DNA of 64,000 bases. It comes from Demequina sp. NBRC 110052 (GTDB lineage Bacteria > Actinomycetota > Actinomycetes > Actinomycetales > Demequinaceae). Of this stretch, positions 4,585 to 30,432 are shown one piece after another (position 1 is the first letter of the stretch; every line of letters begins with the position of its first letter). The stretch is taken from contig NZ_BBRI01000004.1 in the NCBI RefSeq assembly GCF_002090075.1, positions 248,001-312,000 on the forward strand, read 5' to 3'. The notes beneath the pieces were generated by a model. The model searched no databases. It saw only the letters and a program-made list of their open reading frames with translations, and had not been told where the DNA came from. Both the position numbers and the translations under genes were made by a program.

Positions 4585-4585
4585 G

Positions 4586-5374
4586 TCACTCGCTCAGCTG
4601 CGCCTGCAGCGCGGCGTTGGAGTCCTGCGCTGCCTTGCACAGCTCGTTGACCGAGTTCTCGTAGTCGAGCAGTTCCTGCGGCTCGTAGTCCTCGGCGTTC
4701 TTGACGTACTCGACGAGCTGCTTCTGGCCGTCCACGCAGCGCCCCAGTGCGTTCGCGACGGAGGAGGCGCTGCCCACGTAGCCCGAGAGCAGGTCGATCT
4801 GCTGGGCCATGTAGGCGCGGTCGTCGTCGAAGTTCGCGGTCTGGTCGGCGAGCTCGGAGATGCGCGTCTTGGCGGTGTCGAGCTGCTGCGTGAGCAGCGT
4901 GATGCGGTCGGTCTGCTGCGTGATCGTCGTGTTGGCGTCGGCGATCTCCTGGCCGAGCTCGTAGTTGGCGGCGTCGATCTCGTTGGAGCGCTGCTCCCAC
5001 TCCTCGGTGATGCCGACCATCTGGTACACCAGCACCGCCATGACGGTCGTGGCGATGGCGAGCACGGTGACGGCGACAATCCACCACGTGCGCTCGCGCG
5101 GCATGCGGCGCAGGGCTGCGAGCAGTCCCGCGTCGTCGTGGCGACGCGAAGGCGCGTAGGGGGAGCCGTCGGGGTCGTGATCGGGAGTCTCCGCCGCGTC
5201 GGGCGTGGGGGCCTGCGAGGTCTCCACCGCGTCGAAGTCGTCTGCCGTCTCGGGTGCGAGGCCGCCGTCGTCGGCGTCGAGGGTCTCGGTCGCGGTGTCG
5301 CCGGGGAGGGCAGGCGCGGAAGCCGAGTCGCGCTTCGCGCGCGCTCGGCTGCGATCCGACCTGCTGGTCCCCAT
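4586..5374 (-). CDS. Coiled-coil single-pass membrane protein (copy 1)
   Basis: 262 residues. An acidic, Pro-rich, presumably cytoplasmic N-terminus (1-90) precedes one transmembrane helix (about 97-119), a coiled coil rich in Gln/Thr/Asp (about 122-192) and a helical tail with Cys213 and Cys246. The ATG follows the DUF1844 stop directly (TAG then ATG), so the gene is in the same operon. It is a paralogue of 3128-3838. It is not a recognised family. The layout suggests a membrane scaffold for the adjacent secreted protease. Confidence 0.82.
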   Translation of the reverse strand: MGTSRSDRSRARAKRDSASAPALPGDTATETLDADDGGLAPETADDFDAVETSQAPTPDAAETPDHDPDGSPYAPSRRHDDAGLLAALRRMPRERTWWIVAVTVLAIATTVMAVLVYQMVGITEEWEQRSNEIDAANYELGQEIADANTTITQQTDRITLLTQQLDTAKTRISELADQTANFDDDRAYMAQQIDLLSGYVGSASSVANALGRCVDGQKQLVEYVKNAEDYEPQELLDYENSVNELCKAAQDSNAALQAQLSE

Positions 5375-11977: not shown

Positions 11978-12045
11978 ATGAGCACGCAGACGAGCACCCC
12001 CACCGGACGTGCCGCCGTGCCCGCGCCCACGCGCCTCTTTATCTA

Positions 12046-12046
<1 letters not shown>
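11978..12046 (+). CDS. Candidate pheST leader peptide (22 aa)
   Basis: A 22-codon frame starting MSTQTSTPTGRAAV and ending TRLFI, then TAG. The penultimate sense codon is TTT, a rare Phe codon in this GC-rich genome, and the stop is the first arm of a strong hairpin. A leaderless promoter immediately precedes it and pheS follows at 12152. Leader-peptide attenuation of pheST by Phe codons is known in E. coli. A single Phe codon is weak, so the sensing role is inference. Confidence 0.5.
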
Positions 12047-13240
<1,194 letters not shown>

Positions 13241-13241
13241 C

Positions 13242-15866
13242 GTGCCCAAGATTCCGCTGAAGTGGCTCGAAGAGTCCGTCGACCTGGTGCCCGGCTCGTC
13301 CGCTGAGGACGTCGCCTCCGCACTTGTGAAGGTGGGGCTTGAGGAGGAGGGCATCGAGGGCGGCTCCGTCACTGGACCGCTCGTGATCGGGCGGGTCATT
13401 TCGCTGGTCAAGGAAGCCCAGTCCAACGGCAAGACCATCAACTACTGCCGCGTGGATGTCGGGGAGCACAATGACCCGGCTGGCCCCGGTCACAAGCCTG
13501 ACAACAAGGACGAGTACCCCGCGTCGCGCGGCATCGTGTGCGGCGCGCACAACTTCGTCGAGGGCGACTTCGTCGTGGTCGTGCTGCCGGGCGCCGTGCT
13601 GCCCGGACCGTTCCCCATTGGCGGCCGCAAGACGTATGGCCACTGGTCGGACGGCATGATCTGCTCCGCCAAGGAGCTGGGCCTGGGCGAGGACCACGCG
13701 GGCATCATCGTGCTCAAGTCGCCCTCGGGGGAGTCCGACGTGTTCGCCGGCGCCTCCGTCGCCGACGAGGACCTGGTGCCTGGCGCCGACGCGATCCCGC
13801 TGCTGGGGCTCGACGAGAAGACCATCGAGATCAACGTCACGCCTGACCGCGGCTACTCGTTCTCGGTGCGCGGCGTCGCCCGCGAGTACTCGCACTCGAC
13901 CGGTCAGGTGCTGCGTGACCCGGCGGCGGTGCCGCTGACGGGCAAGCGCGGCTCTGGCTTCGAGGTCGACATCGACGACCAGGCGCCCATCCGCGGCAAT
14001 GTGGGCTGCGACCGCTTCGCGGCACGTGTGCTGCGCCGCTTCGACCCGACGGCGCCCAGCCCCGCGTGGATGAAGCGACGCCTGGACCAGGCGGGCATGC
14101 GCCCCATCTCGCTGGCCGTGGACGTCACCAACTACGTGATGCTCGAGCTCGGACAGCCCCTGCACGCCTACGACCTTGCGACGCTGCACGAGCCCATCCA
14201 GGTGCGCCGCGCCAAGCCGGGCGAGAAGATGACCACACTCGACGACGTGGAGCGTGAGCTGTCCGTCGAGGACCTGCTCATCACGGACTCGCCGAACGGC
14301 GAGCGTGGGTCGCGGGCCATCGGCCTCGCCGGCGTCATGGGTGGTCTCGACACGGAGATCTCGGAGACCACCACGGACATCCTGCTGGAGGCCGCGCACT
14401 TCACCCCCGTGACGATCGCGCGCACCGCCCGACGCCACAAGCTGGGTTCCGAGGCGTCGCGCCGCTTTGAGCGTGGCGTGGACACGGCGCTGCCGCCGTT
14501 CGCGATCGAGCGTGCGCTCGGGCTCATGCAGGAGTTCGGCGGGGGAGAGATCGAGGAGATCTACACCGACGTCAACGACGTGGATCCGGTGGAGCCGATC
14601 CTCATGGATCCCGACTTCCCGTCGCGCATCGTCGGCGTGGACTACGCGCCCGAGGCCGTCATCGAGTCGCTGGAGCGCGTGGGCTGCAAGGTCACGGTGC
14701 TGGACGGTGGGCGCCTGTCCGTCGTGCCGCCCACGTGGCGCCCCGACCTCGAGGTGCAGGTGAACCTGGTCGAGGAGGTCGCGCGCCTCGAGGGCTACGA
14801 CACGCTGCCCTCGGTGCTGCCCGTCGCGCCTCCCGGGCGCGGCTACACGCACTCGCAGAAGGTGCGCCGCTCCGTGGCGCGCACGCTGGCGGAGGCTGGT
14901 CTGACCGAGGTGCTCACGTACCCGTTCATGTCCGAGCAGCGCCTGGACGAGATGCTCGTGCCCGAGGACGACATCCGCCGTCAGCACGCCGTGCGCCTGG
15001 CCAACCCGCTGTCAGCGGACAAGCCGCTCATGCGTACCGGCATGACCGCCACGCTCATCGACGCCGTGAAGACCAACTTGGGCCGTGGCGCTCAGGACGT
15101 GGCGGTGTACGAGATCGGTCGCGCCTACCGTGCCGACCACATCGGTCAGGTGCCCACCTCGTTCTCGGGCACCGCCATCACGCCCGACGACGTGGAGCGC
15201 CTCAACGAGGCACTGCCGGGTCAGCCTCGGCGTGCGGCGGGCATGATGGTCGGCAACCGAGTCCCGGCATCGTGGAACCACGCCGCCGAGCCGTTCGACT
15301 GGACCGACGCCATCGCGATGGTGCAGAAGATCGCCGCCGTCTGCGGTGTGCAGCTCGATGTCTCGAGCCGTCCATTCGAGGGTCTGTCGCTGATGCCGAT
15401 GCACCCGGGCCGCGCCGCCATGTTCCGTCTGCTCGACGGCACCCCCGTGGGCTATGCCGGAGAGATCCACCCGAAGGTCGCCGAGAACCTTGGCCTGCCG
15501 CCGCGTTCCGTGGGCTTCGAGGTCATCCTTGACCCGATGATCGAGGCGTCAGAGGGCCGCATCGCGCCCGCGACGCCGGTGTCTCAGCAGGTGCTCGCCA
15601 AGGAGGACTTCGCGTTCGTCGTGGCGTCTGATGTGGCTGCTGGGGACCTGGTGGCTGCCGTGCGTGAGGCCGGTGGCGAGCTCGTCGAGGATGCCCACGT
15701 GTTCGATGTCTACACGGGCGAGCAGATCGGCGAGGGCAAGAAGTCGCTGGCCATCAACGTCGTCATGCGTGGAGCTGACCGGACGCTCTCGGCCGAGGAG
15801 GTGCTCGCCGTGCGCGAGTCCATCATCGCGGCGGCGGGGGAGAAGTTCGGGGCTGTGCTGAGGTAG
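13242..15866 (+). CDS. pheT: Phenylalanyl-tRNA synthetase beta subunit
   Basis: 874 residues from GTG 13242, which follows the pheS stop by 1 nt. A longer frame overlapping pheS is rejected. Domains in order: N-terminal region, tRNA-binding EMAP-like domain (about 40-160), B3/B4 editing domain (about 215-390), B5 (about 420-490), catalytic-like core (about 500-760) and the C-terminal FDX-ACB anticodon-binding domain (about 780-874, from SQQVLAKEDFAFVV to AVRESIIAAAGEKFGAVLR). The gene is intact. A decayed copy of its 3' part lies 4.4 kb downstream at 20304-20710. Confidence 0.96.
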   Translation: MPKIPLKWLEESVDLVPGSSAEDVASALVKVGLEEEGIEGGSVTGPLVIGRVISLVKEAQSNGKTINYCRVDVGEHNDPAGPGHKPDNKDEYPASRGIVCGAHNFVEGDFVVVVLPGAVLPGPFPIGGRKTYGHWSDGMICSAKELGLGEDHAGIIVLKSPSGESDVFAGASVADEDLVPGADAIPLLGLDEKTIEINVTPDRGYSFSVRGVAREYSHSTGQVLRDPAAVPLTGKRGSGFEVDIDDQAPIRGNVGCDRFAARVLRRFDPTAPSPAWMKRRLDQAGMRPISLAVDVTNYVMLELGQPLHAYDLATLHEPIQVRRAKPGEKMTTLDDVERELSVEDLLITDSPNGERGSRAIGLAGVMGGLDTEISETTTDILLEAAHFTPVTIARTARRHKLGSEASRRFERGVDTALPPFAIERALGLMQEFGGGEIEEIYTDVNDVDPVEPILMDPDFPSRIVGVDYAPEAVIESLERVGCKVTVLDGGRLSVVPPTWRPDLEVQVNLVEEVARLEGYDTLPSVLPVAPPGRGYTHSQKVRRSVARTLAEAGLTEVLTYPFMSEQRLDEMLVPEDDIRRQHAVRLANPLSADKPLMRTGMTATLIDAVKTNLGRGAQDVAVYEIGRAYRADHIGQVPTSFSGTAITPDDVERLNEALPGQPRRAAGMMVGNRVPASWNHAAEPFDWTDAIAMVQKIAAVCGVQLDVSSRPFEGLSLMPMHPGRAAMFRLLDGTPVGYAGEIHPKVAENLGLPPRSVGFEVILDPMIEASEGRIAPATPVSQQVLAKEDFAFVVASDVAAGDLVAAVREAGGELVEDAHVFDVYTGEQIGEGKKSLAINVVMRGADRTLSAEEVLAVRESIIAAAGEKFGAVLR

Positions 15867-15908
15867 TGAACGTCGGCGGGTTCGACATGCATGTGTCCCG
15901 ACACTTGA

Positions 15909-16766
15909 CTAGAGGACTGTACTGAAGCCTGCGCAGCGACCGAGGCACGCCGCGCATTCAAACCGCCCACCTTCACGACCGCTGCGGTTGCTGACGTCGA
16001 CGGTCATGGCGGTCACTCGTGCGTCTGGAAACCGGGGGTAGCGAACGATTGCCGCGTGATCGAGGCGTGGCGTGCCGAAGACTGTCCTAGTCTGCGCGAG
16101 CACCACTTGCCCTTCCCGGTGATCACACGGGACTGGTGAGCAAACGTTGCATGTCTCGTCGCGCCGATTGATGGTGTGAGGTGCGTCAGTCCCAGAGATG
16201 TGATCGCACATAGCTGCATTCTTGCCGCACGCGCTACAGAGCCTGCTGGTCTGAATTCCCGCCGACAGGCCGACGCGCCAGTGGGCTAGCCGGGTCGCAC
16301 AGTTCGTCCAGTACTCCCCGTCCTCGTATGTCAGACGGCATCCCACAAGAGCACGACGCAGTGCACCAGTTCTATGTATCCACGCATGGCACGCGTCGGC
16401 AAGTGAGGTCCGTTCGAGGTGGTTGAGCGCGGACACAGCCGCGCGTTCACTCTCCTGAACTAGCGTGGCCAGTCGCGCGTACTCAGGGGGGTCAAGCGTT
16501 CGGATCGATTCGCTGAAGTCCGATAACGCCCCCACATTTGTTCCTCGACAAGCCGTCAACGCTGACCATGGCGAACCCGGTGAGCAGATGGACGGGTCCT
16601 CTCTCCAAAGGTGTCCCCTGATTGCGAGGTCTCGTGTGGCATCGGAGTAGAGGCGACTTGCCGCATTCAGCGCCGTGGTGCCGTGCGCCCATAAGTATGC
16701 GTCTCGAAACGGGCCCGGCGCAGGTGGGATCTCGCCGTACTCAAGTACTAGCCCTCGAAATTGCAT
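15909..16766 (-). CDS. Cys-rich putative zinc-binding protein of the island
   Basis: 285 residues, no recognised family. The N-terminal 160 residues look helical and soluble. The C-terminal third holds two similar cysteine knuckles, CSACGKNAAMCDH and CNVCSPVPCDH, plus a final CAACLGRC, so zinc ribbons are likely. The ATG lies 3 nt after the stop of the 156-aa gene, giving a two-gene minus-strand unit. GC content and codon choice (ATA, TTG, AGA, TTT) are unlike the flanking core genes, a sign of transfer. Its stop is about 40 nt from the pheT stop, so it converges on pheT. Confidence 0.7.
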   Translation of the reverse strand: MQFRGLVLEYGEIPPAPGPFRDAYLWAHGTTALNAASRLYSDATRDLAIRGHLWREDPSICSPGSPWSALTACRGTNVGALSDFSESIRTLDPPEYARLATLVQESERAAVSALNHLERTSLADACHAWIHRTGALRRALVGCRLTYEDGEYWTNCATRLAHWRVGLSAGIQTSRLCSACGKNAAMCDHISGTDAPHTINRRDETCNVCSPVPCDHREGQVVLAQTRTVFGTPRLDHAAIVRYPRFPDARVTAMTVDVSNRSGREGGRFECAACLGRCAGFSTVL

Positions 16767-16769
16767 TCT

Positions 16770-17240
16770 CTACTCGAGGCCACTTAGCACGCGCTCGAGG
16801 GCCGCCAGCACGTCGGCTTGCTCGCCCGACACCTCGAGGCCCTCGACGGTGCCGTCAGGGGAGACCTTAGCAACCTTGACGGAGAGCATCGGTTGTTTGG
16901 CAACTCGCGATCCCCACCCGAGATGTCGGAGATACTCGATCACCACAAATCGCAGGGCTGCAATCGCCTCTGCGCTGGCGAACTGGGAGACGACTACCGC
17001 CAGAGCGAGATAGTCGACTCCCTCACCGTATTCCGTGAGAAACTGCGGGTCGTCGGTCCCCGCGAACGCAACATCCAACTGCTGAGCTCTCGCCCGCTTC
17101 GGAATCTCCAGCAGGGAGTCGTCGAAAGTGGGCTTCCCATCCCGGGCCGTGATCGGCAGGATCTCGACGCGACCGCTCGCCGGAGGCAAGACATCTACTC
17201 CCCAGAACTCAGGCTTCCAGCTCGAAATCTTGGTTCCCAT
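16770..17240 (-). CDS. Unknown 156-aa protein of the island
   Basis: 156 residues with a beta-rich N-terminus (WGVDVLPPASGRVEILPI), a hydrophobic helical middle (about 76-107, YLALAVVVSQFASAEAIAAL) and a C-terminal beta-hairpin plus helix (VSPDGTVEGLEVSG then EQADVLAALERVL). The small C-terminal fold resembles, in layout only, accessory components found with NTPase-based conflict systems. GGTGGGG precedes the ATG. It is the first gene of the minus-strand pair and divergent from the HEPN gene. No function assigned. Confidence 0.65.
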   Translation of the reverse strand: MGTKISSWKPEFWGVDVLPPASGRVEILPITARDGKPTFDDSLLEIPKRARAQQLDVAFAGTDDPQFLTEYGEGVDYLALAVVVSQFASAEAIAALRFVVIEYLRHLGWGSRVAKQPMLSVKVAKVSPDGTVEGLEVSGEQADVLAALERVLSGLE

Positions 17241-17472
17241 GTCCCCACCTTGTATGTCTCGTTAGGTATGAAGCAAGTGCATCTGAAGAATTCTGGCGTT
17301 GGGCGCTCCTTAGTGGGGTACTGTCGCCCTAGTTGGTTTGGCGCTAGGGGGTGTTGCGTTGCCATCCATCGGGCTCGAAGAGAGTGTTCTGAGAAGTTTT
17401 GCGACGCACACATGCGATCAGGTCGCGCAACTCGCTACGCGGCCCCGAGGAGCGCCTCGGCACGCCCCGCTG
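17241..17472. promoter_or_regulatory. Divergent promoter region of the island
   Basis: 232 nt separate the minus-strand pair from the HEPN gene. It is more AT-rich than the genome average and contains CATACCT and TAACGA-like elements on the minus strand. On the plus strand candidate -10 boxes are poor. The HEPN frame is open back to a TTG at 17338, so part of this stretch could be coding. No strong operator is seen. Confidence 0.35.
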
Positions 17473-17889
17473 ATGCCCGTAGACGACCTCATTCGGCGCG
17501 TTGCCGTTGACCGCCTGGAACTGTCTGCCACCCACCTTTCCGCTGCCGACCACTTGCTGCGTGAGTCACGATTCCGGATGTGCGTTGGGAGGTTCTACTA
17601 CGCCATGTACCACGTAGCACGTGCTGCGGCGTTCGTGGCCTTTCGCGGCGATGACTACGAACGCCATGCGGTGTTGCCGCAGAATCTACCGTCCGATTTG
17701 CGCGACGTTGACGCATTGAGCCAAGACCTTCAGTTCGCGCGCTTGCTACGAAATGACGCGGACTATGACCCCTACCCGGCGAGTGATCAAGTCTGGGAGG
17801 CAGACGCGAGAGGCTTGAGCGCTACTGCGTCATCGTTCTGTGCTGTTGTAGAGCAGTTTGTGCGATCCGAGTTGGAAAGTGGGATCTAG
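17473..17889 (+). CDS. UPF0332-type HEPN domain protein
   Basis: 138 residues from ATG 17473, a typical length for a stand-alone HEPN domain. The hallmark helix motif RFYYAMYHVARA (40-51) and the later LRNDADYDPYP (92-102) match UPF0332 HEPN proteins. The ribonuclease signature Rx4-6H is not in its usual place: the Asp-Tyr form RNDADY replaces it, so catalytic activity is uncertain. HEPN proteins of this kind usually pair with a minimal nucleotidyltransferase antitoxin. Here the partner is an ATPase whose GTG start overlaps this stop by one base (TAGTG), implying coupled translation. TTG starts at 17338 or 17359 would add up to 45 residues. Confidence 0.85.
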   Translation: MPVDDLIRRVAVDRLELSATHLSAADHLLRESRFRMCVGRFYYAMYHVARAAAFVAFRGDDYERHAVLPQNLPSDLRDVDALSQDLQFARLLRNDADYDPYPASDQVWEADARGLSATASSFCAVVEQFVRSELESGI

Positions 17890-19538
17890 TGCGCGAAGGA
17901 ATTAGCGACGCCATCGCTGAGCGTTTGACCGACGTCGGCGTGATTGCTACGGAGGTCTCGGAGCGACTCTTCCCAGACGAGTATTGGGTCGTCGTTCATG
18001 TAGACCCTTCCAGACTGGCTGTAGCCCAAGCCCAAGTCGCTCAACTCGAAGCAGCCGTGCGCCGCGCCGGCGCAGTGGAGTCCGACGTTGTAGTGGTGAT
18101 TCGTCCGAACCGAGCCGCTGACCCCACGCTAGTGCGCGGGGAGGTTCAAGGGCGTCTGTACAACGCCGAGATTGACCAGTTGATCCAGCTTCTCGAGGCT
18201 CGATCAAGGACTTCAGATGCGCTGCCAAGTCTGCGTTACGTCGAGGACCCTCGCGCTAGCCTGAGCACGGTAGCTGCCTCTCGACACCAGTTCATCTACG
18301 GACGCCGCGGGGTTGGAAAGACAGCCTTGCTCTTGGAGGCGAAGCGGCTTGCAGAGCAGTCTGGAAGCGTCGCTGTGTGGTTCAACGCGCAGGTCTTTCG
18401 CAGGAGTTCTCCGGAAAGCGCCTTCTTGACAATTGTTGAGCAACTGTGCAGCGACCTTCTGGGGACATTTGCCAACTCCACCAGTGATCTCCCAGTCGCG
18501 CTACAAAGTATCCGGGAACTCATTAGGGAGAGTCGATCAGCAGCGGCACCAAGTGCTGTCGGCGTCGGTGAGTTGCTACCGAAGATCAATACAGCCCTAA
18601 GGGGTACACTTCGCGGCGACCTTGTTAGGTTGTATCTCTACCTGGACGACTTCTATCTCTTTGACGTCGAGGCACAGCCCTTGCTGCTCGACTACCTGCA
18701 TTCGGCGCTCCGCGACTGCAACGGATGGATCAAGGTGGCGAGCATTGAGAGGCTCACCCGCTCCTACGACGCGGGTAGCCGTCTTGGGCTGGAGATTCCG
18801 CACGATGCAACCACCGTCAATCTCGACGTGACGCTCGAGGATCCGCAGGAAGCCCAGAGGTTCCTCGAACGGGTGCTGGCCGACTACACGGTTGCAGCTG
18901 GTATCCCGTCTCCGCGCCGCATCGCCAAGCCGGAAGCGCTTGCAAGGTTGGTGCTCGCTTCGGGAGGCGTTCCGCGCGACTACCTTAATCTGCTGGCCTC
19001 GTCGATTGTCGTGGCGAGGAAAGCACGAAACCTCGCTCGCGAAGTCGGCAAGGAAGATGTCGCACAAGCCGCCGGGCAGGCCGCGCGCACGAAGCGGAAT
19101 GACTTGGAGCAGGACGTCGGCGACGAGAACGCGGCGGGACTGCTCCGCAATCTTGATGCGCTGTCGTCTCAGGTGCAGGCGAGAGGGTTCACCTACTTCC
19201 TCGTTCGCGTAGACGTCCCTGTCGGCGGTGCGTACTCGCATCTCGAGAGACTCGTCGATCTGCGGTTCTGTCACCTGGTTCTTCAGTCGCTCTCTGATCA
19301 GCATCGGCCGGGGGTCAGGTACGAGGCGTACATGCTGGACCTGAGCGAGTTCGCTGATTTCCGGCTGAAGCGTGGCCTGAACGTGCTTGACCTTCAGGAG
19401 GGCCGCTGGACATGGAAGCTGACCGGCACAAAGGGAAGCGTCGAGCCCCTCGCCGGCACGAAGTTCAGGGATCGGCTTCGGCGCGGCCCCGTAGTCGACG
19501 CTGTGGGCTCCGACTTGACTCTCGCTGGCGAGGCCTAA
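17889..19538 (+). CDS. P-loop ATPase coupled to the HEPN protein
   Basis: 549 residues. The N-terminal 90 residues form a small alpha/beta domain (YWVVVHVDP, long helix, DVVVVIRP). Then comes an AAA-like ATPase: Walker A GRRGVGKTAL (138-147), Walker B LYLYLDDF (about 248-255), and a sensor-like SIERLTRSYD. A helical region follows, then a C-terminal domain (about 420-540) with YFLVRVDVPVG and FRLKRGLNVLDLQEG. No transmembrane helices or nuclease motif are seen. It starts at GTG overlapping the HEPN stop. By position it could regulate or be regulated by the HEPN protein, or sense a trigger. The exact family is not recognised. Confidence 0.8.
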   Translation: MREGISDAIAERLTDVGVIATEVSERLFPDEYWVVVHVDPSRLAVAQAQVAQLEAAVRRAGAVESDVVVVIRPNRAADPTLVRGEVQGRLYNAEIDQLIQLLEARSRTSDALPSLRYVEDPRASLSTVAASRHQFIYGRRGVGKTALLLEAKRLAEQSGSVAVWFNAQVFRRSSPESAFLTIVEQLCSDLLGTFANSTSDLPVALQSIRELIRESRSAAAPSAVGVGELLPKINTALRGTLRGDLVRLYLYLDDFYLFDVEAQPLLLDYLHSALRDCNGWIKVASIERLTRSYDAGSRLGLEIPHDATTVNLDVTLEDPQEAQRFLERVLADYTVAAGIPSPRRIAKPEALARLVLASGGVPRDYLNLLASSIVVARKARNLAREVGKEDVAQAAGQAARTKRNDLEQDVGDENAAGLLRNLDALSSQVQARGFTYFLVRVDVPVGGAYSHLERLVDLRFCHLVLQSLSDQHRPGVRYEAYMLDLSEFADFRLKRGLNVLDLQEGRWTWKLTGTKGSVEPLAGTKFRDRLRRGPVVDAVGSDLTLAGEA

Positions 19539-19743
19539 GCCCCTGCAGCGGGTGCGGCTGGGAAATCATCGACGGGTGACTATGAGACAAGAGCGCACGC
19601 TAAGTGGCGCGCGGTGCGGTCTGCTGTGCGAGTCTGCGAGACTTGTGGTGGCGGGCGGACCTGAGTGAATCCCCCGAGCCCTTGTTGCCCGGCTCAGAGC
19701 CACCGCCCGTGCCCGGTTCGACGTGTGAGCTCCCACAGGCCAA

Positions 19744-19914
19744 GTGGAGCCGGAGACCATCTGGGCCCCTCCGCGGCCCACAGAGAGCGCGACGGAGCCC
19801 GCGCCGAGCCCAGAACCCGTGGACGCCGACGCCGTTTCAGACTCCGTGTGGTGGCCTTGTGCGCTTGCACTTCCGATCGCCGTGGCCGCTTGGGCGAGCG
19901 TGGCCTCGAAGTGA
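19744..19914 (+). pseudogene. Decayed 3' fragment of a membrane/surface protein gene
   Basis: A frame preceded by a stop (19726-19728) encodes VEPETIWAPPRPTESATEPA, more Pro/Ser/Glu-rich sequence, and then a hydrophobic segment ALALPIAVAAWASVA before TGA at 19912-19914. This resembles a Pro-rich stalk plus C-terminal membrane anchor. Just upstream another frame also reads like a Pro-rich linker (EPLLPGSEPPPVPGS), suggesting a frameshift. No start or promoter is seen. The remainder of 19539-20303 contains no gene I can support; a short frame from 19954 with CNAPGHVDYTYCGH may be another remnant. Confidence 0.45.
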
Positions 19915-20303
19915 TAAGCGTGGGACCGCAGCCTCGGACGCGCGCGCACCGAGATGGCATGGCTCGTCGAAGCGCTCGTGCAGGAGGGGTTGTTCACGAC
20001 AACAGTCGCCGGGACTCCGGAGCTATCGCAGGTGGGCCGGCCGCGTGTGCTGCGCGCGGACATCCGACTCTGTGAGCTCAACGGTGAGGCGCCCACCGAT
20101 GCCTGCAACGCGCCGGGGCATGTGGACTACACGTACTGTGGGCACTCGCGGTATGCCTCGACAACCACGTCTCGATGCAGGCGAGCACGGGTGCCGATGT
20201 TCGTCGTGCAAGCCGGGCCACGCTCGATGCCGCTCGCGGCGGGCTGCAGACGATCTGGAGAGCAGCGGCGAAGTAGTTGTCGACGCTATAACTCGGACCG
20301 CGT

Positions 20304-20710
20304 GACGGTGACCCAACTGGTTGCGCTGGCGAGCCGAATCCGAAGGTGATGCAGAACCTGGTCAAAGGGCCAGGCGGGGTGGGCTTTGAGGTGATTGTGG
20401 CGCGGATGATCGAATCGTTCGAGGGCGGCATCGCGCCCGCGACGGTGGTGCCGCAGCAGGAGCGAGTCAAGGAGGACATCGCGTTCATCGTCTCGTCTGC
20501 GGTCGCCGCGGGGGACCTCATGATGACAGTGAAGGCCCCCAGTGAAGTGGTAGCGAGCATGCGCGATTGTTCGATGTCTACGCGGGCGCGCAAATCGTCG
20601 AGCGTAGGGACTCGCCGACGATCGACGTGGTGGGGCGCGCCGCAGGCAAGCCTCAGAGCTCCGACGAGGTACTCGCGGTGCGTGAAGCGATCACAGCGAC
20701 GGCGGGGTAG
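20304..20710 (+). pseudogene. Degenerate copy of the 3' end of pheT
   Basis: Translation gives GDPTGCAGEPNPKVMQNL, VGFEVI, MIESFEGGIAPAT, VKEDIAF and VAAGDL. Then, after a frameshift near 20540-20580, FDVYAGAQI and SSDEVLAVREAITATAG followed by TAG. Each piece lines up in order with the FDX-ACB end of the intact PheT (for example GTPVGYAGEIHPKV, VGFEVI, IAPAT, VAAGDL, FDVYTGEQI, EEVLAVRES). By eye about half of aligned residues agree. Weak similarity may extend upstream to about 20185. It has no promoter or catalytic part and cannot make PheT. It marks the far edge of the inserted segment. Confidence 0.85.
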
Positions 20711-20837
20711 AGGCCCGGGGCGGGGTTGCACAAGTTGGGTCGAACGTAGTCCACGCGGCAAGCGCATCGGCTTGCGTCGCGTAAGTGGTTGCGGAAAACT
20801 CATGGTCGGGAGTCGTGTAGTGAGCACGCGGGTTCTG

Positions 20838-23810
20838 ATGGGGGAAATTGTGCTGGTTGAAGCGAGCGCAGGAGCGGCGCTGTCCATTGCTTTTGAGCGT
20901 GTTCTCGACGGTGCATTGCGCGTTCTCCAAAACTCGGGTGTTGCTAAGCGCCAATCGAATCGAGAGTTGTTGGACGTTCGCGCGCAGATTGGGACTGCTT
21001 TCGCGCAGGTGAATCTGCCCCTGGTTGAGGTCCTTCCGGATGACGTATCAGTGCGCGCGTTCGAAGAGTTCTTGAGTACACCGGACTGCGGTTCACTGCT
21101 CGAAGACGTGGTCGCGCTGGTTCTCGTCGATGCGACGGAAGATGAATTTGGTGCAGCGCGCGCGACGTTTCTTGCCCTAACAGCAATGCATTTTGAGGGG
21201 GCTGTGGGCGATGAGAGCTCCCGGCTCGCGTTCGATCTCACCTTGGGAGCTGTGCGAAGCCGGATCGAGGCGCTCGAGCTCGACTCACAAGCGGCTATCC
21301 AGAGCCTTCGGAGTGCTGCTGTCCAGTCAACATTGCGGCGAAGTGCCGCATCGATTACGCATAGGGCGAGCGTCGCAGCCCAGTTCGTGGATCTAGCTGC
21401 ACGGATCAGGCTTGCTCAGTGGGAGCGAGACTACAAAGTCCAGGTTGCAAGCCAACACGGATACCTAACTCCGCCGGATCCCGAAGTCAGGCGGAAGGTC
21501 CCGTTCGACGAACTGTATGTTGCACCCCGACTGCACGTAGACGGCCCGGCAGCGACAAGTATTGACAAGGCGCCGATCGCGGTTGACGACTTTGCCCGGT
21601 CGCTGCAGCGGACCGTCGTGCTCGGAGACCCTGGAGCCGGCAAGTCGACCGTCGCGTCGTACATTGCGCACCGCGAAGCCGAGTTGGGCGACCGAGTCCC
21701 GTTCCTCGTCGTCGTGCGCGAGTTCGCAGCCACTATGCCGGTTCCGCATTCGGTCGCAGAATACATCAATCGTGCGGCCGGGAGCCGGTACCAAGCGACG
21801 CCTCCGGACGGGGCCGTCGAGTACTTGCTCAGGTCTGGGCGAGCGCTAGTGATCTTTGATGGGCTCGATGAACTAATTGAGACTAGTTCACGTCGTGAAG
21901 TTGCAGAGATCGTTGAGGCCTTTGCGAACGCATTTCCGCAGGCACGAATCCTCGTCACGTCGAGGCGAGTCGGTTACGCGCAGGCACGGCTTGACCCGAG
22001 GCTATTCGACTCGTTGGCAATTGCGGGGTTTCATCCTGAGGATGTGAGTGAGTACGCGGTCAAGTGGTTCAGAGTGGTCGCCGGCGCGGATCGAAGCCTC
22101 GAAGATCCAGACGTTCAAGCCGCTGCGTTCGTCCGTGACGCGGAGGCTGTTGCGGACTTGGCCGCGACGCCACTCATGCTGTCGCTCCTCTGTATTCTGT
22201 ATCGAGGCGAGGGCTACCTGCCTCGTGCGAGGCCAGAGGTCTATGCGGCGTGCGCAAACCTCCTCTTCAAGAAGTGGGATCACTCGCGCAAGATCCATGT
22301 TGAACTCGATGCCGCTCCCCACATCGACAATGCGATCAAGCACATCGCCTATTGGATGTATACATCTGTTGGTGAAGAGGCGGTCCTCGAGAGGGACTTG
22401 GTGCTCCAAACCTCTGAGTACCTCACGCCGTTCTTCTCTAGTGTTGAGGCCGCGCACGTCGCCGCGCAGCAGTTTGTGGATTTCTGCCGGGGGCGCGCGT
22501 GGGTGCTCTCGGAGGCAGGGACGGACCAAGACGGCCGCGCGCTGTACCGCTTCACACACCGAACCTTCCTGGAGTACTTCGCGGCCTTTGAGATCACCCG
22601 TCGTTTCGGTGAGTCGGAACAACTGGCCCGCTTGATCCTGCCGAGAGTCTCACGTGGCGAGTGGGATGAAGTCGCCCAACTGGCGATCCAGATCCATGAC
22701 GGGAATCGGCTGAACGGTGCCGAAGCAGTCATCAGACGCCTGATCTCAGATCGCCGTCGGAGGAGTTCGGACAAGGCGGATTTGGTTTCTGCCTTTGCGT
22801 GGAGGGTGCTGTCCACAGTCTCCGTGAGCCGCGAGCTCCTGGTCGCGTTGGTCGATCACTCCTACGCGACCTCGATGTTGGTTGCGCAGGAGTTCGGTCG
22901 CACGGGTATCTTGACCAACTTGGTACCATCGATCCTGCTCGCGCCAGATGTCCGGACCGACCTCGCGACCGTGGTAGCCGAGGCCGTGTTCGATCGCTGC
23001 AGCGCATCACTCGAAGACCGAGATGATGAGACGAGACGCGTAGCTGCCCACCTCGCGCTTGTATTCGGTGATACTTGGGGCCCGATCTACTCTGAGCGTC
23101 AACGCCTCCGTGCACGCCTCATTGATCGCAAGCGCGAGTTCTTGGACAGTCACCGAGAGATCCTCCTGGGCGGGAACAACGCTGACGAGGTCTGGGCCCT
23201 AGCCCTGATCGCCGGTGTAGCGAGCATTGCGGAGGTTATCGCGGCCGCACGCTCGGATGGCGCGCCGCCGTTTCAGTACTTGTTCCGACGAGTTGATCTC
23301 GCGATTGGGGGTATTGGGTTCGGCTCGGCCGCACAAAACATGCTTGCACACGTCACTCGCAACGTCCCCTCAACTCCCGAGGAAATGGGTGCACGCGTCA
23401 AGGACGCGGTGGGTACGGATCTTGAGGAACTTGCGGCTTCCTGCGGTGAGCTTGCCGATCTGCCGCTAGCCAGAACCTCGCGGACCTTGGACCGCCACCT
23501 CTGGTACATGGGCCAAGCGAGTTCCGCGCTACCCCTGACGCTTGATCCTGGTCAGCGCTGGGGCGCAATTCTCCTGTTGCTGTGTTTGGCGGAGCTCGGG
23601 GAGTTGTTGCCCGAGGGAAGCGCCTACTTGCCTCGTGGCGCGCAGGGGAACATTCTGCGTCTTGCGGTCTCCACTCGTCAGGGCAGGTTGCAGCAGGATG
23701 AACTGTGGGCCGCTGTCGGTGCCGAGTCAATCGGTGCGAACGAGCAGGGACTGTTGCGCGCCTGGTGCTCAGGAGAACTCGCACTTTGCGACGCCTCGCC
23801 GATTGACTAG
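20838..23810 (+). CDS. NACHT-domain NTPase (NLR-like), probable antiphage protein
   Basis: About 990 residues from ATG 20838; GTG 20820 and ATG 20802 are alternatives, and the open frame continues back into the pheT remnant, which is not part of the gene. The N-terminal 250 residues are helical. The NACHT module has Walker A LGDPGAGKST (262-271), Walker B ALVIFDGLDELIE (336-348), ILVTSRR and the winged-helix motif FTHRTFLEYFAAFE (572-585). The C-terminal 400 residues are helical and repeat-like, a plausible sensor. Bacterial NACHT proteins include STAND-type phage defence proteins. No recognisable nuclease, TIR or protease effector is visible; the helical N-terminus may be the effector or adaptor. 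GC is lower than in core genes. Confidence 0.88.
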   Translation: MGEIVLVEASAGAALSIAFERVLDGALRVLQNSGVAKRQSNRELLDVRAQIGTAFAQVNLPLVEVLPDDVSVRAFEEFLSTPDCGSLLEDVVALVLVDATEDEFGAARATFLALTAMHFEGAVGDESSRLAFDLTLGAVRSRIEALELDSQAAIQSLRSAAVQSTLRRSAASITHRASVAAQFVDLAARIRLAQWERDYKVQVASQHGYLTPPDPEVRRKVPFDELYVAPRLHVDGPAATSIDKAPIAVDDFARSLQRTVVLGDPGAGKSTVASYIAHREAELGDRVPFLVVVREFAATMPVPHSVAEYINRAAGSRYQATPPDGAVEYLLRSGRALVIFDGLDELIETSSRREVAEIVEAFANAFPQARILVTSRRVGYAQARLDPRLFDSLAIAGFHPEDVSEYAVKWFRVVAGADRSLEDPDVQAAAFVRDAEAVADLAATPLMLSLLCILYRGEGYLPRARPEVYAACANLLFKKWDHSRKIHVELDAAPHIDNAIKHIAYWMYTSVGEEAVLERDLVLQTSEYLTPFFSSVEAAHVAAQQFVDFCRGRAWVLSEAGTDQDGRALYRFTHRTFLEYFAAFEITRRFGESEQLARLILPRVSRGEWDEVAQLAIQIHDGNRLNGAEAVIRRLISDRRRRSSDKADLVSAFAWRVLSTVSVSRELLVALVDHSYATSMLVAQEFGRTGILTNLVPSILLAPDVRTDLATVVAEAVFDRCSASLEDRDDETRRVAAHLALVFGDTWGPIYSERQRLRARLIDRKREFLDSHREILLGGNNADEVWALALIAGVASIAEVIAAARSDGAPPFQYLFRRVDLAIGGIGFGSAAQNMLAHVTRNVPSTPEEMGARVKDAVGTDLEELAASCGELADLPLARTSRTLDRHLWYMGQASSALPLTLDPGQRWGAILLLLCLAELGELLPEGSAYLPRGAQGNILRLAVSTRQGRLQQDELWAAVGAESIGANEQGLLRAWCSGELALCDASPID

Positions 23811-24009
23811 CTAGACGCGGCAGCGCAAGTAGATTAGGTCCTGCAGGCATCAGCGGCTGGTATCCTTACCGAGTGCAGCCAGCAAGAACGGCCTGCATGC
23901 GTCGCAGATTGCTTCTCCTTCTCGCCAGCGCACGTCCCCAGACACAGCGCGGCTCGTAGAAATCCTCTCTTCGGCGAACGAACGCGAACACCTTCGCGCT
24001 TCGCCACCA

Positions 24010-24059
24010 CTGCCGGTGCCCTGAACTAGGGGACAAGCACGCTGACGCGCGCCCGGCAG
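24010..24059 (+). promoter_or_regulatory. Structured 5' leader of the DEAD-box helicase gene
   Basis: CTGCCGG (24010-24016) pairs with CCGGCAG (24053-24059) and encloses smaller stems (CCCT/AGGG and CGC/GCG), giving a branched structure 18 nt before the start codon. A -10-like TATCCT lies about 150 nt upstream (near 23862). Long leaders controlling RNA helicase genes, often by cold or autoregulation, are known. This instance is a prediction. Confidence 0.4.
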
Positions 24060-24077
24060 CAGACTTGAAAGGCATTC

Positions 24078-25592
24078 ATGCCCATCCACTTCGCCGATCT
24101 CGGCGTGCCCACGCAGCTCACCACCGTGCTTGAGCGCGAGGGAAAGCTCACCCCGTTCCCCATCCAGGAAGACACGCTTCCTGACACGCTCGCAGGCCGT
24201 GACGTGCTCGGCCGCGGCAAGACCGGCTCCGGCAAGACGCTCGCGTTCTCGCTGCCCGTCGCCGCGCGCCTGGGCGCCAAGGGCGGCAAGGCCCGTCCTG
24301 GCCGCCCGCGTGCCCTCATCCTCGCGCCGACGCGTGAGCTCGCCACCCAGATCGACGCCGTCATCGCGCCCCTCGCGGCCGCATACGGCATGAGCACCAC
24401 CACGATCTTCGGCGGCGTGAACCAGCGCCGTCAGGAGAACGCGATGGCTCGCGGCGCCGACATCGTCGTGGCGTGCCCCGGCCGCCTCGAGGACCTCATG
24501 AAGCAGCGCATCGTGTCGCTCGACGCGGTCGAGATCACGGTGCTGGACGAGGCCGACCACATGGCGGACTTGGGCTTCCTGCCCGGCGTGACCCGCATCA
24601 TGGCCGCCACCCCGCAGCGCGGTCAGCGCCTTCTGTTCTCGGCCACGCTGGACAACGGCGTGGACAAGCTCGTGAAGCGCTTCCTCGACAATCCCATCAC
24701 GCACTCGGTGGACAGCGCAGACAGCCACGTGGACGCCATGACGCACCACGTGTTCCACGTCAACGGCGCCGACGGCAAGCGTGACGTGGTCCGTGCCCTC
24801 GCGTCGGGCACCGGCCGCCGCATCCTGTTCATGCGCACCAAGCACCAGGCGAAGAAGCTCGCCAAGCAGCTCACCGCGGACGGCATCCCCGCCGTGGACC
24901 TGCACGGCAACCTCGCGCAGGGCGCCCGTGACCGCAACCTCGCAGCCTTCGCTGAGGGTCGCGCCAAGGTTCTCGTCGCCACCGACGTCGCCGCGCGCGG
25001 CGTGCACGTGGACGGCATCGAGCTGGTCATCCACGTGGACCCGCCCATGGAGCACAAGGCGTACCTGCACCGCTCCGGTCGTACGGCTCGCGCCGGCACC
25101 TCGGGCGACGTGGTCACCCTCGTGCTGCCCGAGCAGCGTCGCGACACGCAGCAGCTGCTGCGCAAGGCCAACATCAAGGCGGAGCCGCAGGCCGTCAACG
25201 CGACGTCGCCGCAGGTCGTCACGCTCATCGGCGAGGTCGCTCCCTACGTGAAGCCGGCCCCCATCACCGAGCAGCCTCAGCGCCAGGGCGGAGGCCGCGG
25301 ACGCGGTCGCTCGCAGGGTGCAGGCGGCGGCGCGCGTCGTGACGGTCAGCAGGGTTCCGGTCGCGGCCGTGGCCGCGGCCAGTCCGCCGGTGCAGACGCC
25401 CGACGCGGTCACACCGGTGAGACCGGACACGGCGGCCGCCAGGGTGGTCGTCAGGACGGCGCCTCCTCGCAGGGCGGCCAGCGTCGCCAGGGGAGCGGCC
25501 AGGGTCGCGCCTCGCAGACCACGCGCAGCCGCCACTCCGGCGGGCACTCGTCCGCCGCGGCGTTCTCCGCTGGCGGCCGCCGCAGCCGCTGA
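24078..25592 (+). CDS. DEAD-box ATP-dependent RNA helicase
   Basis: 504 residues. All helicase motifs are present: Q motif TPFPIQ, motif I RGKTGSGKT, Ia PTRELATQ, Ib CPGRLEDL, II DEADHM, III SAT, IV ILFMRTKHQ, V ATDVAARGVHV and VI HRSGRTARAG. After residue 395 comes a low-complexity tail rich in Arg-Gly and Gln (GRGRGRSQG-type), which usually binds RNA. It unwinds structured RNA, probably in ribosome assembly or cold adaptation. GAAAGG precedes the ATG. It marks the return to core-like base composition after the island. Confidence 0.95.
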   Translation: MPIHFADLGVPTQLTTVLEREGKLTPFPIQEDTLPDTLAGRDVLGRGKTGSGKTLAFSLPVAARLGAKGGKARPGRPRALILAPTRELATQIDAVIAPLAAAYGMSTTTIFGGVNQRRQENAMARGADIVVACPGRLEDLMKQRIVSLDAVEITVLDEADHMADLGFLPGVTRIMAATPQRGQRLLFSATLDNGVDKLVKRFLDNPITHSVDSADSHVDAMTHHVFHVNGADGKRDVVRALASGTGRRILFMRTKHQAKKLAKQLTADGIPAVDLHGNLAQGARDRNLAAFAEGRAKVLVATDVAARGVHVDGIELVIHVDPPMEHKAYLHRSGRTARAGTSGDVVTLVLPEQRRDTQQLLRKANIKAEPQAVNATSPQVVTLIGEVAPYVKPAPITEQPQRQGGGRGRGRSQGAGGGARRDGQQGSGRGRGRGQSAGADARRGHTGETGHGGRQGGRQDGASSQGGQRRQGSGQGRASQTTRSRHSGGHSSAAAFSAGGRRSR

Positions 25593-25660
25593 CGGCGACA
25601 CTCGCACTCGTGACGGGCGGCGTGTCGTAGACGGCACGCGCTGATCGTCCACAGGCGTAC

Positions 25661-25698
25661 GGAAGGACCCGGGTATCCACCGATGCCCGGGTCCTTCC
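25661..25698 (+). terminator. Strong intrinsic terminator hairpin
   Basis: GGAAGGACCCGGG (25661-25673) pairs perfectly with CCCGGGTCCTTCC (25686-25698) over a 12-nt loop, about 70 nt after the helicase stop. The stem is symmetric and could stop transcription from either side. No long U-tract follows, as is common in high-GC actinobacteria. Confidence 0.8.
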
Positions 25699-25780
25699 GC
25701 ATTCCTGGATGGTTGAAGGGTTAGTGTGTCCGGAGCGTCCACGCCCATGGGGCGGTGCGAGGGCGCTGCAAGGGGGAGAG

Positions 25781-26161
25781 ATGAGAAGGCTGACCATCTG
25801 GCTCAGCTGGGGAGCGGCCATCGTGGCCGCGATCGTGACAGGTGTCTTCGCGCTGCTCGAGGCCTACGCGGCCGAAGAGGAACTGCGTGGCATGCAATGG
25901 ACCACCGCGCTCACGGTGAGCGCCACCGTCACGTTGGCCGCAGCCGCGGTCGCGGCAGGCATCACGGCTGCCTGGTCCGAGGGCTGGGCCGACCGCGCAC
26001 GTGGCCCGTCCTCAGGAGCGACGCGGGTCGGCATCGCAATGCTGCTCGGCGGCGGAGCGCTCTCGATCGTGTTCCTCCCCGCGATCTCCGTGGCGATCTC
26101 AGGAGCGCTCGTGATCCTGCTGGAAGTGCTGCGCGGCGAGCCCGAGCCTGCCGACGACTGA
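25781..26161 (+). CDS. Small membrane protein
   Basis: 126 residues with three predicted membrane helices (about 5-27, 43-64 and 88-115) and an acidic C-terminal tail (RGEPEPADD). GGGGGAGAG precedes the ATG at 25781. No family recognised. It lies alone between the helicase terminator and a HAD-like gene. Confidence 0.65.
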   Translation: MRRLTIWLSWGAAIVAAIVTGVFALLEAYAAEEELRGMQWTTALTVSATVTLAAAAVAAGITAAWSEGWADRARGPSSGATRVGIAMLLGGGALSIVFLPAISVAISGALVILLEVLRGEPEPADD

Positions 26162-26245
26162 GCCGCGTCCGGCGTGGGGGACGCCCCGCGGTGCGTCCGC
26201 GTGTTGAGGTGGGCGTAGGCCCTAGACACGCGGGAGGTGCCGACG

Positions 26246-26782
26246 GTGGCCTCAGTGGCGATCCTCGTCGACGTGGACGGCGTGCTGTGCCCATTCCCCG
26301 GGGTTGACGCGTGCCGCGATCACTGGCCGGCCGAGGACTGGAGACACGACGCCGTCGGAAGAACGCTCGGCATCGAGTGGTCCAGCGGCGCAATTGACCG
26401 CCTGCGAGCCGTCACAGGCCTGCCCGGCGTCACGGCGTGGTGGTGCACCACCTGGCGCAGCCACGCGCCCCGCGTGCTCGCGCCCATGATCGGGCTCGGC
26501 GCCGACTGGGACGTGTGCGACGTCGAGGGCGGAGCCTTCGCCGAGGCCGGCTGGTGGAAGTCCCGCTGCGCACGTGACGCCGTCGGGATGTACGACGCCG
26601 TCGTGTGGATCGACGACATGCTCGACGCCTGGCAGGCCGAGATGGCTCTGTCCGGCGGCGACGGACCCGAGGAATGGCCAGGCGGACGCCTGCTCATGGT
26701 CTCCCCAGCGTCGGACCTGGGGCTCGAGGCCCACCACCTGGACCAGATCGAGGCGTTCGTGCGCGACGCTCTCGCCGACTGA
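26246..26782 (+). CDS. HAD-like hydrolase domain protein
   Basis: 178 residues starting ASVAILVDVDGVLCPFPG, the HAD motif I DxDG with the nucleophile Asp and DGVL. Later WWCTTWRSHA is consistent with motif II, Lys in GWWKSR with motif III and VWIDDMLDAW with the motif IV acidic pair. No cap domain is visible, so it resembles small phosphatase-like HADs of actinobacteria. GTG 26246 is chosen because GGGAGG lies 8 nt upstream; GTG 26237 overlaps that Shine-Dalgarno. Substrate unknown. Confidence 0.75.
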   Translation: MASVAILVDVDGVLCPFPGVDACRDHWPAEDWRHDAVGRTLGIEWSSGAIDRLRAVTGLPGVTAWWCTTWRSHAPRVLAPMIGLGADWDVCDVEGGAFAEAGWWKSRCARDAVGMYDAVVWIDDMLDAWQAEMALSGGDGPEEWPGGRLLMVSPASDLGLEAHHLDQIEAFVRDALAD

Positions 26783-26794
26783 GTAGGTGCTCGA

Positions 26795-27847
26795 CTACTC
26801 GGTAGCCGTCACCGCCTGCGACGCATCGGCGACCTCGCCCACCAGGCGTTCGATCACGTCCTCGAGCATCGCCGCTCCCAGCACCGTGCCCGCAGAGTCC
26901 TGCACGAGCGCCAGATGCGTGCCGCGCGCCTGCATGGCGGTCAGCGTCTCCTCGAGCGACGCGTCGGCGTCGATGGCGGTGAGGGGGCGCACCGCGTCGG
27001 ACGGGATCGGCTTGGTCGCCCCGCCTCGAGGCACCTCGACGAAGTCCTTGAGGTGCACGTAGCCCACGTACTCGCCGCCCGCGTCCACGAGCGGGAAGCG
27101 CGAGAAGCCCGTGCGCACGCACTCGCGCTGCGCGCGTTGCGGCGTGACATCCACCGGCAGCGTGACCAGGTCCTCCGCGGGCGTCAGCACATCGCGCACC
27201 GACTCGAACGACAGCTGCAGTGAGCCGTCCAGCACGCGACGCTCGTGCTCGTCCAGGAGCCCCTCCTGGTGCGACTCGGCGACTAGGGCTGCCACGCCGT
27301 CGGCGTCGAACGCACTCGCGACCTCCTCGGTCGGCTTCACGCGCAGCATGCGCAGCACGATGTTCGCCGACCAGTTCAGCAGCCAGATCACGGGCTTGAG
27401 GATCACGACCAGGAAGTACAGGGGCGGGCCCAGGAGCAGAGCGGAGCGCTCCGGCCCGGCGATCGCGATGTTCTTGGGCACCATCTCGCCCAGCACCATG
27501 TGCAGCGACACGACGATCAGCAGCGCGATGGCGAACGCGATCCCGTGCAGCCACGCTCCCTCGATGCCGATCGCCGCGAGCGGCTTCTCCAGCTTATGTG
27601 CGACGGCGGGCTCACCGAGCGCGCCGAGCCCCAGCGAGCACGCGGTGATGCCCAGCTGCGCGCCGGCCATCATGAGGGACACGCGGTCCATGGCGCGCAC
27701 GGTGATGCGGGCCGTGTACGAGCCCTTCTCCGCGTAGGGCTCGATCTGCGTGCGGCGCGCGGAGATCAGCGCGAACTCCGCGCCCACGAAGAAGGCGTTG
27801 CCCAGCAGCAGCACCACGGTGAGGGCGATCGCGAGGCCGTCAGACAT
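26795..27847 (-). CDS. CNNM/HlyC-type membrane protein (DUF21 + CBS)
   Basis: 350 residues. A DUF21 (CNNM) transmembrane domain with four membrane segments occupies about 1-190 (NAFFVGAEFALISARRTQIE, LGITACSLGLGALGEP, HMVLGEMVPKNIAIA). Two CBS repeats follow (about 215-335, MTP-like VLTPAEDLVTLPVD and PLTAIDADASLEETL). There is no C-terminal CorC_HlyC domain, unlike its neighbour. Such pairs act in Mg2+/Co2+ homeostasis. Its start overlaps the upstream gene's end by 8 nt, so the two are an operon. Confidence 0.9.
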   Translation of the reverse strand: MSDGLAIALTVVLLLGNAFFVGAEFALISARRTQIEPYAEKGSYTARITVRAMDRVSLMMAGAQLGITACSLGLGALGEPAVAHKLEKPLAAIGIEGAWLHGIAFAIALLIVVSLHMVLGEMVPKNIAIAGPERSALLLGPPLYFLVVILKPVIWLLNWSANIVLRMLRVKPTEEVASAFDADGVAALVAESHQEGLLDEHERRVLDGSLQLSFESVRDVLTPAEDLVTLPVDVTPQRAQRECVRTGFSRFPLVDAGGEYVGYVHLKDFVEVPRGGATKPIPSDAVRPLTAIDADASLEETLTAMQARGTHLALVQDSAGTVLGAAMLEDVIERLVGEVADASQAVTATE

Positions 27848-30282: not shown

Positions 30283-30432
30283 GACCTCTCCTTGAGGACC
30301 CGTTCTTCCCCGCGTGCGGTTCACCCAGGGCGGATCTCCCTCCAGGGGCACCGTGTCGGAACGCGGTTGCCAGCCGGCGAGCTGGAGGGCTTGGCGCCGG
30401 ACTTCTTGATCCACTCGTGACTCTATGGGTGA

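Follow-up and report, generated by a model that had tools for sequence, protein, structure and literature searches.

Immediately downstream of pheT in Demequina sp. NBRC 110052 lies a stretch of about 8 kb, running from the pheT stop codon (15866) towards a DEAD-box helicase gene (24078), which we interpret here as one occupant of a variable, defence-type site of the genus. The window to which the coordinates refer, unless another contig is named, is the whole 64,000-nucleotide (nt) stretch that was analysed, on contig 4 of the 2.61 Mb host genome (G000; NZ_BBRI01000004.1, positions 248,001 to 312,000); other genomes are designated by G numbers and their contigs by L numbers. The intact pheT gene (13242–15866, + strand; 86% identity to the gene of G001, of the same genus) forms the left border with its 3′ end. 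It is followed on the opposite strand by the genes for a Cys-rich, zinc-knuckle-like protein, Cys285 (15909–16766; CxxC..CxH twice and then CxxC), and for a small protein, p156 (16770–17240), which leads this pair and is separated from Cys285 by 3 nt. All on the + strand, there then come the gene for a 176-amino-acid (aa) HEPN protein of the AF0298 type (17359–17889), whose start is most likely the TTG at 17359, judging from its homologues; the gene for a 549-aa AAA_16 or ORC-CDC6-like ATPase (17889–19538), whose start overlaps the HEPN stop in TAGTG; a decayed copy of a gene that we call c11 (19735–20237), recognized as a tblastn match to a gene of the genus; a decayed, frameshifted copy of the last ~440 nt of pheT (20293–20728); the gene for a stand-alone NACHT NTPase of up to 1002 aa (20802–23810); the conserved leader of the DEAD-box gene (23897–24077), which is the right border; and the DEAD-box helicase gene itself (24078–25592), which in 12 relatives was fetched together with pheT on one stretch. 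A preliminary description of this DNA had the genes, their strands and their order right; its starts for the HEPN and NACHT genes have been corrected, and the c11 relic and the right edge, which it missed, have been added.

The lower guanine plus cytosine (GC) content and the different codon choice that had been remarked upon are borne out by measurement: GC is 0.617 at 15867–23850 against 0.706 in the remaining window, GC at third codon positions is 0.64–0.74 for the five island genes and 0.88–0.95 for nine flanking genes, and codon adaptation is 0.25–0.38 and 0.61–0.81, respectively, seven of the nine flanking genes having themselves served as the reference set. The seven 1-kb windows with GC below 0.65 all fall within 16001–24000. 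The right edge is sharp, at about 23.86–23.90 kb, beyond which the sequence matches the DEAD-box leader of 12 relatives at 80–95%, and on the left the sequences diverge between relatives downstream of the pheT stop codon. A tRNA as landing site is rejected, as neither tRNA nor tmRNA was found in the window; no recombinase domain was detected among the eight island open reading frames scanned with Pfam, and scans for sigma-70 promoters and terminators gave no excess over shuffled sequences.

Across the genus, up to 16 kb after pheT were taken from 36 genomes (38 loci, three with less than 3 kb left), the genes of the relatives being called by a home-made gene caller. A low-GC gene (a called gene of at least 100 aa with GC of at most 0.63) starts within 6 kb of pheT at 25 of the 38 loci, that is, in 23 of the 36 genomes, counts that include G020 and G036, where the genes are probably ordinary ones; 10 loci are without such a gene and three more are short and also without one. 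Most of the low-GC genes are singletons in clustering, and when the site downstream of pheT was compared among relatives, as the preliminary description had advised, the cargo differed between genomes. On the left the site is anchored by the pheT 3′ end and on the right, in many species, by the DEAD-box gene. In 13 genomes, that of the window included, the two are 0.34 kb (G010) to 11.9 kb apart; in the others the DEAD-box gene falls outside the fetched stretch.

Forty low-GC proteins, picked by hand from 18 of the low-GC genomes, were compared with Pfam, and 14 of the 18 contain one or more families of restriction, Abi or other defence type above the cut-off. The families above it include HSDR_N, HsdM, DNA methylases, McrBC, Mrr, GmrSD with HEPN_MAE_28990, AIPR, TIR-TPR, SIR2, RVT_1, AAA_21/AAA_15 (AbiEii/OLD-like), GHKL ATPase, DUF4145, protein kinase, HerA with SbcC, and DUF4062, DUF6602 and DUF6119, the last three being linked to defence; an OLD TOPRIM match in G032 lies just under the cut-off. 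The remaining four genomes gave DUF families only (G033, G018), sub-cut-off matches only (G017), or a superoxide dismutase and cytochrome b (G020), and 8 of the 40 proteins had no Pfam match at E 0.01. A PADLOC tally over 63 hotspot proteins, five of them from the window, returned 503 families at 1e-5, not resolved by protein, among which the most shared models were mad, AriA, Old, HEC-01A, AbiLi and PtuA. The putative defence island proposed for this end of pheT is in this way supported, and more strongly than the sequence alone would allow, by a site that is variable and, by its predicted families, rich in defence genes across the genus; the island of G000 itself may serve in phage defence.

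Downstream of a control gene (47699–49561), 0.7% of the 500-base windows are low in GC, against 31% after pheT (means over 18 genomes), with 15 genomes higher after pheT, one lower and two equal (Wilcoxon p 0.0007, kinship uncorrected); this gene is present in 36 of the 44 genomes of the genus, and 18 of the 20 fetched had enough sequence. Content common to at least one other genome amounts to 76% at the control and 46% after pheT. In genomes of other genera of the order, 0–15% of the windows after pheT are low in GC, with one pheT match each, and the site looks unoccupied in 17 of 17, the sample being 17 of 22 genomes and the five omitted being fragmented or split there. In view of the control gene and of these other genera, the hotspot is, within this sample, a feature of Demequina.

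The nearest known counterpart is cDHS1 of Pseudomonas aeruginosa, where, according to the portions of the source that deal with the site, core genes enclose a changing set of immune genes that is not tied to any one type of mobile element, and the left-side genes include pheS and pheT (PMC10250203). The same portions place merR, ihfA and a proline tRNA at the site, whereas in Demequina the cargo begins soon after pheT, the window holds no tRNA, and relics of pheT remain. The arrangement that defines a core defence hotspot, core genes on either side and variable cargo between them, appears in the Demequina sequences as well, and we judge the site to belong to a known kind of defence-type hotspot, newly located, bearing unusual scars and carrying an unlisted HEPN-ATPase cassette. 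In the literature searched, which did not extend to bioRxiv preprints, neither a pheT hotspot in Demequina nor this HEPN-ATPase pair is reported. The reading that we favour, with a probability of about 0.6, is that a core defence hotspot of Demequina is occupied here by three independent modules (p156-Cys285, HEPN-ATPase and the NACHT gene), whose arrival was probably staggered and in which the ATPase would govern the HEPN protein. Beyond this, the hotspot yields unnamed candidates, namely HEPN-ATPase, p156-Cys285 and unassigned genes in other species.

The five genes adjoin one another and might for that reason be taken as one composite defence system; however, no locus from another genome, many of the stretches being short, carries two or more of the three modules together, and the pheT relic sets the NACHT gene apart. 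We consider a single five-gene system highly improbable, and disfavour it because the modules occur apart. The earlier statement that the combination matches no named system stands as far as the comparisons with PADLOC and NCBIfam go, but not in its implication of a combination, as the genes do not appear to form a unit.

In the HEPN-ATPase pair, PF05168 (HEPN) is matched at 23.9 bits (Pfam cut-off 22) and AAA_16 at 35.6 bits (cut-off 32.6). The ATPase is 73% identical in Demequina maris (G030), at the same site, and the pair occupies the pheT site in three genomes. Wherever the ATPase is at least 36% identical over nearly its full length, a HEPN gene lies directly upstream (7 of 7 places, the window included), and one of seven more distant or partial ATPase relatives also has a HEPN gene in that position, giving 8 of 14 overall; in the 7 of 7 places outside this locus the pair occurs without the other genes of the island. 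The ATPase is matched in 6 of 248 genomes of the order, G000 included (E 1e-5), a patchy spread, and in none of 50,697 phage records. On plasmids it is found in 23 records, one from Paraburkholderia and 22 from Burkholderia, the latter at 28% identity over 42% of the query among the matches listed. The plasmid neighbourhood examined, that of Paraburkholderia (NZ_CP051517.1, 100259–113374; L113), has the pair adjoining SIR2-HerA and a PIN-domain gene, and by its predicted products this locus is a small defence cluster. In an IMG/VR contig the pair lies beside an S24/HTH repressor.

As regards the type of HEPN protein, residues H103, R131 and D135 are invariant in 8 of 8 sequences, with the motif R-x-x-A-D-Y-(D/E), and the best fold match is PDB 2hsb, which is also a sequence match (E 8e-4, ranked after two other HEPN chains). 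The passages devoted to AF0298-type HEPN-T proteins (PF05168; 2hsb; PMC3710099) give them the same fold, with the Arg kept, the motif His absent and an alternative His upstream; the dedicated ATPase partner of the island protein does not figure among what those passages list. In the mechanism that we envisage, the ATPase would sense a phage-derived signal, spend ATP and activate the HEPN protein, which would act as an AF0298-type RNase by means of the alternative histidine, and the infected cell would be shut down. Named ATPase families are remote: Sll1717 (NF047389), also a P-loop ATPase, is matched at 25.6 bits against a cut-off of 75, over the P-loop, and DS41_1 (NF053860), which would be the DS-41 of PMC13092281, weakly, at 20.5 bits against 370. 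Three ATPase relatives likewise lie below the cut-offs, although that from the plasmid matches the C-terminal part too.

A number of observations weigh against this mechanism and against a defensive role. The Rx4-6H motif of canonical HEPN RNases is absent, none of the 8 sequences having a His at 5–7 residues from the conserved Arg on its C-terminal side, so that the HEPN protein could bind RNA without being catalytic. No HEPN occurs in the stretch examined around six of the distant or partial relatives of the ATPase (G310, G538, G006, G017, G058 and G176), so that the ATPase family would also work without it. PADLOC gave no confident match for any of the five island proteins, the best (E 0.0016) being to the P-loop of mad8. 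The AlphaFold model of the ATPase is poor (pLDDT 51.9), and its quality makes it unsuited to fold search. In G648, finally, the two genes scanned beside the pair encode a TetR regulator and a dehydrogenase, neither of which is a defence protein. This last case, the HEPN fold, the two overlapping genes, and the inclusion of toxins of toxin-antitoxin pairs among HEPN-T proteins (in the passages of PMC3710099 that treat them) would all suit a selfish, toxin-antitoxin-like pair or a housekeeping pair for RNA processing. Nevertheless, the partner here is an AAA_16 ATPase of 549 aa and, unlike in HEPN/MNT toxin-antitoxin systems, there is no adjacent MNT nucleotidyltransferase; the spread through the order is patchy; and in three genomes the pair occupies the pheT site, itself rich in defence-type genes, while on the plasmid it adjoins SIR2-HerA. 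A selfish or housekeeping pair therefore seems to us unlikely.

Some further observations concern this pair and its relatives. A recent joint transfer of the pheT end and HEPN-ATPase with D. maris was considered, and the DNA identities, 74% for the pheT ends and ~70% for the cassette, do not support it. In G017 (L057, 7089–9461 in pheT orientation) a pheT relic is followed directly by the gene for a protein of 790 aa that weakly matches ORC-CDC6-like and AAA_16 families, and ~5 kb further along there is another ATPase belonging to this broad family. In G007 two contigs (L067 and L068) each hold a pheT 3′ end; HEPN-ATPase comes after it in one, and in the other a HAD-like gene comes next, together with a pheT relic; this doubled end would come from a second strain in the assembly or from a real duplication.

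The NACHT protein, for its part, carries the domain of STAND NTPases well above the Pfam cut-off (PF05729, 55.4 bits against 26.7; E 9e-15), and would be a separate STAND-type sensor-effector. The gene proper begins at or after ~20802, the portion of the open reading frame upstream being pheT relic, behind which it stands alone. Distant relatives occur on 84 plasmid records, 20 from Streptomyces and 20 from Nostoc among them (25–35% identity in the ten listed), and in two other genomes of the order, G203 and G002, out of 248. A sequence comparison with PDB gave nothing at E 0.01, and EruA (NF058535), which has a NACHT domain in common, is matched at 27.2 bits against a cut-off of 1000; the N- and C-terminal parts of the island protein fall outside any family assignment.

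For p156-Cys285, 316 genomes of the phylum contain one relative of each protein besides G000, both in G499: that of Cys285 at 26% identity (E 4e-24), with cysteines in common, as judged by eye, and that of p156 weakly, at 27% (E 9e-5). The p156 relative lies directly upstream of the Cys285 relative, in the same order as in G000, and on this 9.7 kb contig (L117, ~3743–5025) the two occur without HEPN-ATPase and adjoin genes for an 8xMP octameric membrane protein and for DUF7701, with which they possibly form a four-gene unit. Among 248 genomes of the order p156 was found in G000 only, and neither protein was found on plasmids.

The relics of the anchor gene would offer a readable record of how integrase-free defence hotspots are filled and turned over, and a testable route. 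The decayed pheT copy announced ahead of the NACHT gene is indeed there: it corresponds to the final 443 nt of the gene, from which it differs by frameshifts while agreeing at 297 of 432 aligned positions (69%), is recovered by tblastn (E 9e-30) as two pieces in different frames, and is the longest direct repeat reported for 12000–28000; it is about equally close to the pheT of its own genome, of G001 (71%), of G027 (69%) and of G004 (67%). The c11 relic just upstream (tblastn, 44% over 122 aa, E 8e-13, plus a second piece) contains stops and is the single c11 match in G000; c11 is matched in 16 of the 44 genomes of the genus, in some only as a fragment, and lies intact near DEAD-box or HAD genes in G027, G010, G008, G036 and G033. 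Relics of the pheT 3′ end follow intact pheT in 4 of 37 genomes (G000, G007, G017 and G027), starting ~443, 436, 235 and 307–372 nt before the gene end, points that decay has blurred, with cargo between or beyond the pheT pieces that differs on the two sides of the relics. In G027 the decayed 5′ part of another gene, c38, continues into a copy of the final 62 nt of pheT; the alignments overlap by ~13 nt, with GCGCGA in common, and an intact c38 lies 7 kb further on. In G007 the intact pheT and the relic are near-identical over ~270 nt with diverged sequence on either side, a tract that resembles what recombination would leave, although the case is weak because the assembly is fragmented. In G031 (L065, 6873–7413 in pheT orientation) the intact DEAD-box gene is preceded, at a distance of 3 kb, by a 5′ fragment of itself, leader included, the mirror image of the pheT relics.

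A remnant of a site-specific integrative element could have left such traces, if its own pheT 3′ end restored the gene, the displaced end became the relic, and the integrase was later lost; the element e14 in icd is a precedent for bringing along a gene 3′ end. The pheT 3′ pieces with cargo downstream of intact pheT in the four genomes, several junctions lying exactly at the pheT stop, and relic starts of ~443 nt in G000 and ~436 nt in G007 (alignment-dependent) all suit this explanation. Other relics, however, start near 235 nt (G017) or 62 nt (the second piece of G027), the c11 and c38 pieces by the pheT relics and the DEAD-box 5′ piece of G031 are chromosomal genes, and among the matches listed none to PF00589 falls on the pheT contig less than 100 kb from the gene in the 37 genomes where pheT was located, some contigs being short. 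Such an element is thus improbable in our estimation, and the joints between downstream chromosomal genes and the pheT end, in four decayed cases, would seem to fit tandem insertion of chromosomal DNA better than a fixed att site.

What we put forward tentatively, and as a single joint proposal, is that the pheT hotspot grows without an integrase by tandem insertion of chromosomal DNA, and that HEPN-ATPase is a new two-gene abortive-infection system present in at least two phyla. Pieces from related Demequina, each with one end inside pheT and the other in a gene further downstream (c38 or c11, for example), would recombine in pheT, while a few bases in common would link their far end to pheT or its vicinity; a partial tandem duplication would result, from which redundant genes would be lost and the essential pheT kept intact. 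The pheT 3′ relics would record the order in which successive defence cargoes arrived. Transformation can produce tandem duplications in pneumococcus, and these merodiploids, in the portions of the source that describe them, likewise arise from chromosomal DNA integrating and leaving tandem copies, but are mostly ~100–900 kb and repeat-mediated (PMC3784515), whereas Demequina has only short decayed ends. The possibility that foreign sequence has taken the place of the resident 3′ end of pheT was also examined and is unsupported, as identity with the three nearest relatives shows no special drop there.

It is doubtful, though conceivable, that the pheT and c11 or c38 relics are ordinary tandem duplications within one chromosome and that the cargo came later by unrelated routes. 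The c38-pheT joint of G027, with its shared GCGCGA and ~13 nt overlap, looks like a junction at a short shared sequence, as such duplications would leave; yet c11 exists in G000 only as the decayed copy and is therefore not visibly a duplicate of a resident gene, and the cargo differs on either side of the relics. Under the favoured reading, that of a hotspot occupant of three modules, these would probably have arrived at different times, the c11 and pheT relics marking the joint between a newer left part, on the HEPN-ATPase side, and an older right part, on the NACHT side.

Two further features complete the description of the window. The DEAD-box leader (23897–24080, + strand) is strikingly conserved in 13 Demequina genomes, with long invariant blocks such as GGCTCGTAGAAATCCTCTC, and is a candidate cis-regulatory RNA; in its predicted fold 3 of 37 pairs show two-sided changes, and it has no Rfam match at E 1. 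Its 17-nt core (at most 2 mismatches) was found in 6 of 35 genomes of the order against 5 for a reversed control, exactly in G000 only, so that there is no sign of it outside the genus. The sole Rfam match above the gathering score in the window is a SAM-IV riboswitch at 30297–30411 on the − strand.

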